From positions 1 to 64,000 of the forward strand of contig CAUJJL010000137.1 of assembly GCA_963205455.1 (NCBI GenBank): 64,000 nt of DNA, read 5' to 3'. Source of the DNA: Verrucomicrobiota bacterium. GTDB lineage: Bacteria > Verrucomicrobiota > Verrucomicrobiia > Opitutales > Opitutaceae. Shown here in pieces: positions 59,282 to 61,350 of this stretch (position 1 is its first letter; every line of letters starts with the position of its first letter). Below the pieces are notes generated by a model. The model made no database searches. It saw only the letters and a program-made list of their open reading frames with translations, and was not told where the DNA came from. Position numbers and translations under genes: made by a program.

Positions 59282-60268
59282 TCAGCCAAAAGCCTGCCGC
59301 CGCAACCCGCGCAGGGTCGCGAGTTCGCCCCAGTCGGTGATGGCTGGCAGTGGTTTCGGGGATGATCGAGTTCGTCGCTGCATGGATTTTCGATACCCTG
59401 CCAATTGCGTACCAACAAAGGCTTTGCTGCCAAGCACTGCGCCATCGGAAAAGTAACGCACGCGGCAGCGCAGAACCGTCGAAAGGGGCAATTTTCCGCC
59501 TTCGTCGATCACGCGCCGGAACTCTTCTATGGCGATGCTTCCTTTTAGCTCATTTCCATCCGCCCCCGTGCCAAAAAGCACTTGGCGGTAGGCACTTTGC
59601 GCTTCGTTCCAGTCCCGTGCGCCGAAGACGAGCATCAATCCGTTGCGGGCAGATACGTGACCCGCAATCGCCTCGCTGTAGCCACAGAAGCGGTAGTCCT
59701 TGGGATCACTTGCAAGACCTGCACGCACGCAGTTCAAATCGATGTACGCGGCCAGGGCTTCAAGCACCCTTCCGTGCGGTTCCACCAGCACGCTCTTGAA
59801 CCGCTCCGCCCAAAGCGTCCCGTATCGCTGGTGGGTCTTGTTGAACCAGATCGCGAAACGTTGTTTCAACAATTTCATGAACTGGGATACATCTCCCATC
59901 AAAGCGTTCTGGCGCTTCCGCCAAGCAATGGCGTCCGGTCCGTTCTCCGCCAACTGCGCCCGAATCACTTCGAGCCGGGTCGTCTGAAACCGGGTCGGTT
60001 TCGGATAGAGCACGTTGTAGCGCCGAAGCAGTTCCTCATCGGACAGCGGCTGCTTTTGGAGTACCCGCACAAGCACATGAAAGTGATTCGAAAGGAGGGC
60101 GTACGTGATCACCTGCACCCCACAGTAGTCCGATATCTGCCACAACTGCTTACGCAGAACCTCCCTGCCTACATCATCAATGATTCGCTCCCCATTCACG
60201 GTTCGGGTCATGCAGTGGTAAACCGCCTCCTCCTCCTCCCCTGAAATCTTGATCCGAGGCTGCCTCAT
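59282..60268 (-). CDS. REP-associated tyrosine transposase (RAYT, IS200-like Y1)
   Basis: A 328-residue protein of the Y1_Tnp family. The HUH motif is HFH at 62-64 (SNHFHVLVRV). A C-terminal half has FAIWFNKTHQRYGTLWAERFKSVLVE, the region with the catalytic tyrosine in this group. The family mobilises REP-like palindromes rather than whole IS elements. Two copies of a 20-base repeat lie just upstream (60307-60383). Flanks show no inverted-repeat ends, so this is a single domesticated-looking copy rather than an intact IS. Confidence 0.88.
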   Translation of the reverse strand: MRQPRIKISGEEEEAVYHCMTRTVNGERIIDDVGREVLRKQLWQISDYCGVQVITYALLSNHFHVLVRVLQKQPLSDEELLRRYNVLYPKPTRFQTTRLEVIRAQLAENGPDAIAWRKRQNALMGDVSQFMKLLKQRFAIWFNKTHQRYGTLWAERFKSVLVEPHGRVLEALAAYIDLNCVRAGLASDPKDYRFCGYSEAIAGHVSARNGLMLVFGARDWNEAQSAYRQVLFGTGADGNELKGSIAIEEFRRVIDEGGKLPLSTVLRCRVRYFSDGAVLGSKAFVGTQLAGYRKSMQRRTRSSPKPLPAITDWGELATLRGLRRQAFG

Positions 60269-60591
60269 CCCCCGACCTGAAGTCTGAACTCCCCCAATGT
60301 CAACTGTTTTTAACCTGTCCCTTATTAAAGACGTATAACATGACTCATCCTGTGTCTTTGTAATTTTTAACCTGTCCCTTATTTTGGAATCCTGATGAAG
60401 CTAGGTTGCCCTGATGCTAACCTGTTTTGGGCCGATACCGCTGATCTCAATTGGCTCAGGCGAGCCATCGCATTCAAACCACCGCACCAACAGCCCGCCG
60501 TCTGTCAACCTGAGCAATCTTCCTTGATCATCCCCTGCTTTCGGTAGTATTGCGCGGGAGACATCCAGGATTACTCCGCCCTCAAGATTCC
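60269..60591. other. Intergenic stretch upstream of the transposase, with repeats
   Basis: The 323 bases between the divergent transposase and glycosyltransferase genes hold two 20-base direct repeats (see below) and a 6-base inverted repeat between them (60327-60332 with 60354-60359). No coding sequence was found. The promoter for the glycosyltransferase should be in the 60390-60590 part, but none could be named. Confidence 0.6.
60307..60383. repeat. Two direct copies of a 20-base repeat near the transposase
   Basis: TTTTTAACCTGTCCCTTATT occurs at 60307-60326 and again, identically, at 60364-60383, a spacing of 57 bases. Both copies have the same orientation. An inverted repeat (AAAGAC with GTCTTT) sits between them. 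They lie next to a Y1 transposase, so they may be its recognition elements. Confidence 0.7.
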
Positions 60592-61350
60592 ATGTATAGA
60601 AACAAGCGAGTCGCTGTCGTCATGCCTGCCTACAACGCCGAGCGGACTCTTCGTGCGACCTATGAAGAGGTAGTCGAACAGGGAATTGTAGACGACATCA
60701 TTCTAGTAGACGACCAAAGCCGGGATGGAACGGTCGCCCTGGCGCGCACCCTTCCCGGAGTAACCGTCCACGTTCACGACAAGAATCTCGGCTACGGCGG
60801 AAACCAGAAGAGCTGCTACCGGATCGCCCTGGAGAAAGGGGCTGATATCGTCATCATGGTTCACCCCGACTACCAATATACTCCCAAGCTCATTCCTGCG
60901 ATGGCGAGCATGATAGCCAACGGACTCCACGACTTTGTCGTTGGCTCGCGCATTCTGGGCGGATTTGCCCTGCAAGGAGGCATGCCGTGGTGGAAGTATG
61001 TCTCGAACCGTTTCCTCACTGCGGCGCAGAATCTTCTCATGGGTGCAAAGCTGTCGGAATATCACACCGGGTACCGTGCCTATTCACGCGAGCTCCTGCT
61101 GAAAATGCAACTCGACCGACTCTCCAACGACTTTATATTCGACAATCAATTCATTGCTCTAGCCCTCTGGAACGGAAGCATGATCGGTGAAGTCAGTTGC
61201 CCGACAAAATACTTCCCAGACGCCTCATCCATAAACTTTCGCCGCAGCCTGGTCTACGGAATCGGCTGCATGAGAATCAGTCTGCAGTTTTTCCTGAGTC
61301 GCCGATTGGGCTTTTCGCCCCCGGATTTTCTGCCGTCGAATCCGCCCTGA
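60592..61350 (+). CDS. Family 2 glycosyltransferase (DPM1-like)
   Basis: A 252-residue GT-A fold transferase. The ATG giving MYRNKRVAVVMPAYNAERTL is chosen over one 14 codons upstream. Motifs are IILVDDQSRDGTVALAR (nucleotide), the metal-binding region MVHPDYQYTPKLIP and FVVGSRILGG. GYRAYSREL follows. There are no membrane helices, as in dolichol-phosphate-mannose synthase-like enzymes that charge a polyprenyl carrier. Its 3' end overlaps the end of the convergent membrane protein gene by 74 bases. Sugar unknown. Confidence 0.88.
   Translation: MYRNKRVAVVMPAYNAERTLRATYEEVVEQGIVDDIILVDDQSRDGTVALARTLPGVTVHVHDKNLGYGGNQKSCYRIALEKGADIVIMVHPDYQYTPKLIPAMASMIANGLHDFVVGSRILGGFALQGGMPWWKYVSNRFLTAAQNLLMGAKLSEYHTGYRAYSRELLLKMQLDRLSNDFIFDNQFIALALWNGSMIGEVSCPTKYFPDASSINFRRSLVYGIGCMRISLQFFLSRRLGFSPPDFLPSNPP

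Follow-up and report, generated by a model that had tools for sequence, protein, structure and literature searches.

Non-REP repeats flanking RAYT-like genes have been described as TIRs and TIRtrons, with GGGGWSAS as their motif (Di Nocera 2013, PMC3733652). In the available excerpts of that article, this motif is common to only some TIRs, and some TIRs are dispersed as dimers or clusters. A group of longer transposases, subclass 2.3 of the TnpA_Y1 proteins (Quentin 2018, PMC6006769), is reported to be devoid of REP-like flanks, as far as the excerpts of that work go. REPtrons, in which a RAYT gene is accompanied by GTAG REPs, and the IS200/IS605 elements, such as IS608 and ISDra2, share an HUH/Tyr core with the protein described below.

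The locus described here belongs to a Verrucomicrobiota bacterium of the Opitutaceae and was found in a stretch of 64,000 nucleotides, which is referred to below, at its full length, as the window. The interval 59282-60383, singled out in an earlier sequence-only reading, covers a transposase gene and its repeats together:

59282..60268, minus strand: Y1 (HUH) transposase gene, 328 aa, with the HUH motif NHFH at residues 61-64 and the catalytic Y175 in YIDLN
60269..60306, minus strand: leader, from the inner motif to the start codon
60307..60326, minus strand: inner (gene-proximal) copy of the putative end motif, AATAAGGGACAGGTTAAAAA in gene sense, with 18 of its bases shared by the two orthologous loci and a core that occupies its customary position in relatives
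60327..60363, no strand: spacer between the copies with a 6-base inverted repeat, which has no support as a functional part
60364..60383, minus strand: outer copy of the putative end motif, direct, 57 bp farther from the gene, with a decayed counterpart 55 bp out in the related genome G005

That the gene encodes a RAYT transposase, as first read from the sequence, is borne out by a Pfam Y1_Tnp match (39.7 bits, cut-off 23) and by the predicted structure (pLDDT 88.7), whose best match among solved structures is 4er8, the E. coli TnpA_REP (VIA-align Z 16.4, rmsd 2.6 over 160 residues), followed by IS608 and ISDra2 transposase chains with Z of about 14-15. The gene can thus be regarded as a RAYT-type Y1 transposase. 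The NCBIfam model REP_Tyr_transpos scores 47.4 bits, under its cut-off of 80, PHROGs returned a single weak transposase match (E 0.0019), and a phmmer search against solved structures returned three weak ferredoxin matches, with E of 0.1 or more. Residues H62, H64 and Y175 are invariant across 47 proteins. The C-terminal part modelled alone gave an unusable prediction (pLDDT 48.7), and the claim that it folds as a recognition domain was dropped.

With regard to the RAYT group, the protein resembles subclass 2.3, as outlined in the excerpts of PMC6006769, in its length (328 aa, against a median of 325 aa) and, to judge by the 114 residues between the HUH motif and the tyrosine, in a 55-aa insertion between beta3 and alphaC; this distance is 113 in six plasmid-borne YVDLNP proteins and 61 in two shorter ones. 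By contrast, it shows an alignment gap in place of the 10-aa insertion between beta1 and alphaA, carries NHFH and YIDLNC instead of NHYH and YVDLNP, comes from a Verrucomicrobiota host and not from Chromatiales or Alteromonadales, and is accompanied by a linear flanking motif, whereas no REP-like sequence is reported in those excerpts. Its sequence thus places the transposase near, and not in, subclass 2.3 as defined there. Compared with REPtrons, with which it shares the HUH/Tyr core and its best fold match, the protein is longer, and the window repeat is no GT[AG]G-footed hairpin. The likeness to IS200/IS605 is limited to the Y1 HUH core, since the protein is twice as long as the median 152-aa TnpA, its tyrosine motif is Y---N (Y175-I-D-L-N) and not Y---Q, and the subterminal hairpins of those elements have no counterpart at the window repeat.

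The repeat itself, TTTTTAACCTGTCCCTTATT on the plus strand, occurs at 60307-60326 and 60364-60383, 57 bp from start to start; read on the gene strand it is AATAAGGGACAGGTTAAAAA, so that both direct copies lie upstream of the transposase gene in gene sense. The exact matches confirm the spacing first reported, and shuffled sequences held no such pair. The view of the copies as direct and non-palindromic, unlike typical REPs, also holds, since the repeat region shows no folding advantage over shuffled sequences (z 0.47; 135 of 200 shuffles reach as good a fold) and the 20-mer contains neither GTAG nor GTGG. The separate inverted repeat noticed between the copies does exist (AAAGAC at 60327-60332, GTCTTT at 60354-60359), but it brings no folding excess, and neither of the orthologous loci has preserved this stretch; for these reasons both it and a hairpin REP were rejected as functional parts. 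No sigma-70-type promoter match was found within 60200-60600, and a TTGAC inside the motif is partly conserved, being present in 18 of 50 sequences and at the same offset in 12 of those.

Allowing up to three mismatches, no third match to the 20-mer was found in the 64-kb window (0 expected from 100 shuffles), and the whole assembly (4.56 Mb, 210 contigs, 97.9% complete) holds these two copies only. A 14-mer core with up to two mismatches occurs at 17 places in the assembly and its reversed control at 26, that is, without excess. Because the 20-mer is found nowhere else in its source genome, which is the outcome that the sequence-only reading had itself named as its refutation, it is not a dispersed REP-like family there. 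The full form of the sequence-only reading, an active REP-like family spread by the transposase in the source genome, is consequently very improbable: although the core is dispersed in relatives, this nearly complete draft has two copies, both beside the gene, and the related genomes G005 and G008 have one each.

It might also be supposed that the pair arose by chance, or by a purely local duplication unconnected to the transposase. The flanks of the two copies are indeed dissimilar beyond the 20-mer (5 of 10 bases match on the left and 4 of 10 on the right, with no sign of flank duplication), and an alignment of spacer and leader as a tandem copy, of the kind found at a second Y1 gene (C125, below), is weak, 51 of 2000 shuffles being as good. 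Against this barely credible explanation stand the absence of such pairs from shuffles, the conservation of the inner core at the same place in most relatives and a decayed outer copy in G005, both described below.

Taking into account what the excerpts of PMC3733652 describe, the TIRtrons and their TIRYT transposases offer the nearest parallel: a RAYT-like Y1 gene, non-REP repeats at a set distance and a GGGGWSAS-type motif, features that recur among relatives of the window gene, in some of whose genomes the repeats are likewise dispersed and clustered. The strict GGGGWSAS is absent from the window, which carries AGGGACAG, a match at seven of the eight positions; some relatives have GGGGACAG or GGGGGACAG. 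The locus differs from a TIRtron in that its two copies are direct and lie on the same side of the gene, a right end is missing and no further copies are scattered through the genome. Since no inverted terminal repeat lies downstream of the window gene, while one is present for most copies in the multi-copy genome G015, the locus has been filed as a reduced TIRtron relative and not as a full TIRtron. Thus, of the suggestion that this might be a different class of REP-like element, the part that stands is that the motif is cognate, linear and unlike GTAG REPs; the TIRtron class, on the other hand, had already been described in PMC3733652, as its excerpts show, and the element is a variant of a described kind, not a new class. 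By its sequence, the window copy resembles a reduced, fixed form of the TIRtron kind, in a lineage near one for which the excerpts of PMC6006769 report no such flanks. In the open-licence PMC literature, the term TIRYT appears in two papers, and searches with the letters of the motif gave no element of this kind among the matches listed; in the excerpt of PMC4853749, GGGGACAG appears once, in a PCR primer.

The association between motif and gene extends beyond the window. From 269 relatives found, 80 loci were kept, with record titles naming Opitutaceae, Opitutae or Opitutales, other Verrucomicrobia and, once, Akkermansia; 78 of them (L088 and L098, which have no N-terminus, were left out) were used with the window. 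In these 79 loci, which are non-independent, many coming from the same assemblies, AGGG(1-3)ACAG is present in gene sense within 300 nt upstream in 71, the reversed motif in one and the inverted motif in none. The copy nearest to the start codon lies 51-67 nt from it in 50 loci, 72-79 nt in 14 and farther in 7. Among the eight loci without the motif, the upstream sequence of L073 is just 57 nt long, and near variants, e.g., GGGACGG or GTGACAG, occur in most of the rest. Within 600 nt downstream, direct copies were found in 10 loci and inverted ones in 12 (2 and 5 for the reversed controls).

In one clade a hairpin is located just inside the motif, with a stem of 6 or more in 13 of 19 loci (4.2 expected); the window's own group has such stems in 11 of 50 (15.6 expected), and a hairpin adjoining the motif was rejected as a general feature, being confined to that clade. 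In L039, L046, L047, L051, L069 and L071, the gene-proximal motif is immediately followed by a short hairpin (TATACCC...GGGTATA, or versions of it with paired changes), which gives this copy a REP-like look, while the dispersed copies have no hairpin.

Among distant plasmid relatives (10 of 15 records), GGGACAG is found upstream in none; downstream, L148 has two inverted copies about 190 nt from the guessed gene end (the record is unannotated), and L156 has one 2.15 kb away. As a separate observation, Shewanella and Pseudoalteromonas plasmids (L152, L153, L155) have a linear motif of their own, GACACCCA, chosen by eye from three upstream regions, 73-77 nt upstream of a YVDLNP-type Y1 gene. Four direct copies precede the gene in L153, the inverse occurs within 400 nt downstream in L153, L154 and L155, and neither L149 nor L151 has the motif. 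These plasmid genes contrast with the report, in the excerpts of PMC6006769, of subclass 2.3 without REP-like flanks.

The place of the motif within the element can be seen in G015, which holds seven copies that are 90-95% identical. Their pairwise homology starts at, or a few bases outside, the left motif and stops, in most pairs, at an inverted motif copy about 235-250 nt past the gene. In pairs with L133 the homology is lost 126-150 nt past the gene, one pair remains homologous into an additional partial copy, and that inside L132 is an uninformative full-length self-match. The more diverged L138 and L139 have no motif upstream and several copies of CTGTCCCC downstream. In other multi-copy genomes, among the matches listed, the left edge also tends to the motif, and the right edge is often near the stop codon; this last was the case in two multi-copy MAGs. 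In one MAG (L065, L072, L074-L076, L085 and L086), homology begins at the motif and, in most pairs, breaks off within about 3-16 nt of the stop codon, as though that were the end of the copied unit.

In some relatives the core is also a dispersed repeat. In eight genomes, selected because of extra copies at their loci or membership in multi-copy sets, the exact 12-mer AAGGGACAGGTY occurs 61, 42, 67, 26, 18, 5, 1 and 3 times (0-2 for the reversed pattern), and in five of these eight (18-67 copies) it is dispersed, often in direct arrays. The 14-mer AAGGGACAGGTYAA is present in 10 of 57 relatives taken without that selection, and its reversed pattern once each in 3. More than 1 kb separates 33 of the 61 copies in G057, and 23 of the 42 in G058, from any transposase match. 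Copies of a single orientation make up 15 of the 18 stretches picked for neighbouring copies. In 104 distinct neighbouring direct pairs, the 10 bases to the left agree in at least 7 positions in 26 pairs (1.0% for pairs from different loci), and those to the right do so in 15 (1.7%). This flank agreement indicates that part of the array growth took place by local duplication of the motif together with flanking DNA, a process that either the transposase or replication slippage may have driven. Two further arrangements were observed in G059: at L158 (G059:C8:33200-35300), a RuvC-type gene (Pfam PF02075, E 1e-28) lies between five direct and two inverted motif copies, and at L159 (G059:C48:4400-5600), four copies in one orientation and two inverted ones face each other across about 90 bp, in a MITE-like form with no notable gene.

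These observations bear on another proposal, namely that the motif is mainly an operator bound by the transposase or by a host factor, its role as an element end being secondary or lost in the family. This would well explain why the motif keeps a set distance from the start codon in most relatives, and why the inner copy is conserved in three orthologs lacking a right end. The proposal accords poorly with the copies lying far from transposase genes, with the arrays and with the coincidence of the motif with both element edges in G015, and we consider it unlikely.

The source genome (G000) contains six Y1 genes. The one at G000:C125:18463-19570 (L180, L184-L186), with an open frame of 325 aa and YIHLNP, has GGGGTCAGGCCTTG twice, direct and 63 bp apart, upstream within a near-perfect 63-bp duplication and once, inverted, 20 nt after the ORF, with no further exact copy in the genome; judged from these repeats, it is a compact TIRtron. 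Among four further Y1 genes, a single GGGTCAGG precedes one by 39 nt, and the near upstream region of three is free of any such motif. As the left end is doubled at the C125 gene and not at these four, the doubling is neither unique to the window gene nor general. Separately, the Y1 protein of G000:C128:75609-75950 (L178) has the signature Y---Q--HH, given for subclass 1.2 in the excerpts of PMC6006769.

The history of the window gene can be followed in congeneric genomes. A glycosyltransferase gene and a reprolysin-like gene flank it in G000, G005 and G008, the G005 and G008 proteins being 90% and 83% identical to that of the window; the same locus is thus occupied in 3 of 10 congeneric genomes, with one copy of this type. 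In G007 the two flanking genes adjoin and the transposase is absent, and in G006, G001 and G002 the flanking-gene matches are separated by about 1.4 kb in which neither GGGACAG nor a transposase match was found. The gene is under constraint, with dN/dS of 0.057/0.356 (0.16) against G005 and 0.100/1.099 (0.09) against G008, and its dS resembles that of neighbouring genes (0.29-0.40 for G005 and 0.84-1.18 for G008; the reprolysin-like gene, with a saturated dS of 2.11 against G008, falls outside the neighbour range). Neighbour-like dS together with low dN/dS hence indicates vertical inheritance with purifying selection since the common ancestor of the three.

The inner motif has 18 bases identical in all three orthologs, while the remaining leader has changed. 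Both G005 and G008 have a single copy of the motif, and G005 appears to have, 55 nt upstream of it, a decayed outer copy with 10 of 15 matches, the other five being all transitions; its score is equalled in 28 of 5000 shuffles and in 0 of 658 real windows. This points to a motif pair probably older than the split from G005, the second window copy being probably an older duplication that has decayed in this sister genome. No right end was detectable in the window, G005 or G008, the one 9/12 match in G005 being close to chance (0.54 per 600 nt). Taken together, the window gene looks like a vertically inherited, immobilised and selectively kept transposase that retains its end motif, and its single copy, vertical inheritance and purifying selection suggest that it is probably domesticated.

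As a whole, we favour, as the probable explanation, that the 20-mer marks, as a terminal repeat, the left end of the TIRYT-like Y1 transposase beside it, now immobilised, constrained and single. Points that tell against this reading are the missing right end and the imperfect GGGGWSAS match in the window, the lack of flank duplication in its pair, the mixed orientation of downstream copies in relatives, the exceptions in G015, the right edges near the stop codon in other multi-copy genomes, and the absence of the motif upstream in distant plasmid relatives. In mobile relatives, the left edge of the element falls at the motif, about 50-70 bp ahead of the start codon, and a second copy, inverted or direct, can follow the gene. 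The enzyme would specifically recognise the motif and, as its fold and conserved residues suggest, would cut and rejoin a single strand nearby by means of Tyr175 and the HUH motif. The end copies would then multiply into direct arrays, partly by local duplication with their flanks, a pattern that is seen in relatives and in which the enzyme may take part. In the source genome, the element would have been acquired or kept once between the glycosyltransferase and reprolysin-like genes, with no recognisable right end. It would have been inherited vertically under purifying selection with the motif retained in the leader, where it may let the enzyme regulate its own gene, and the direct pair would be a duplicated left end, probably predating the split from G005. 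A broader proposal, which we put forward tentatively and hold to be possible, is that a Verrucomicrobiota Y1 lineage between subclasses 2.1 and 2.3 spreads hairpin-free motifs into direct arrays, copying motif and host flank by single-strand processing, and that the window holds a domesticated descendant with a host or self-regulatory role exerted through the end motif.

If the 20-mer is indeed such an end, long RAYT-like transposases, close to a group reported without REP-like flanks, would now be tied to a concrete linear end motif. The loci would offer a natural series, with mobile elements in many copies at one extreme and a lone, constrained gene lacking a right end at the other, and a defined substrate of 18-20 bases would make it possible to test how REP-like arrays grow and why hosts keep transposases of this kind.
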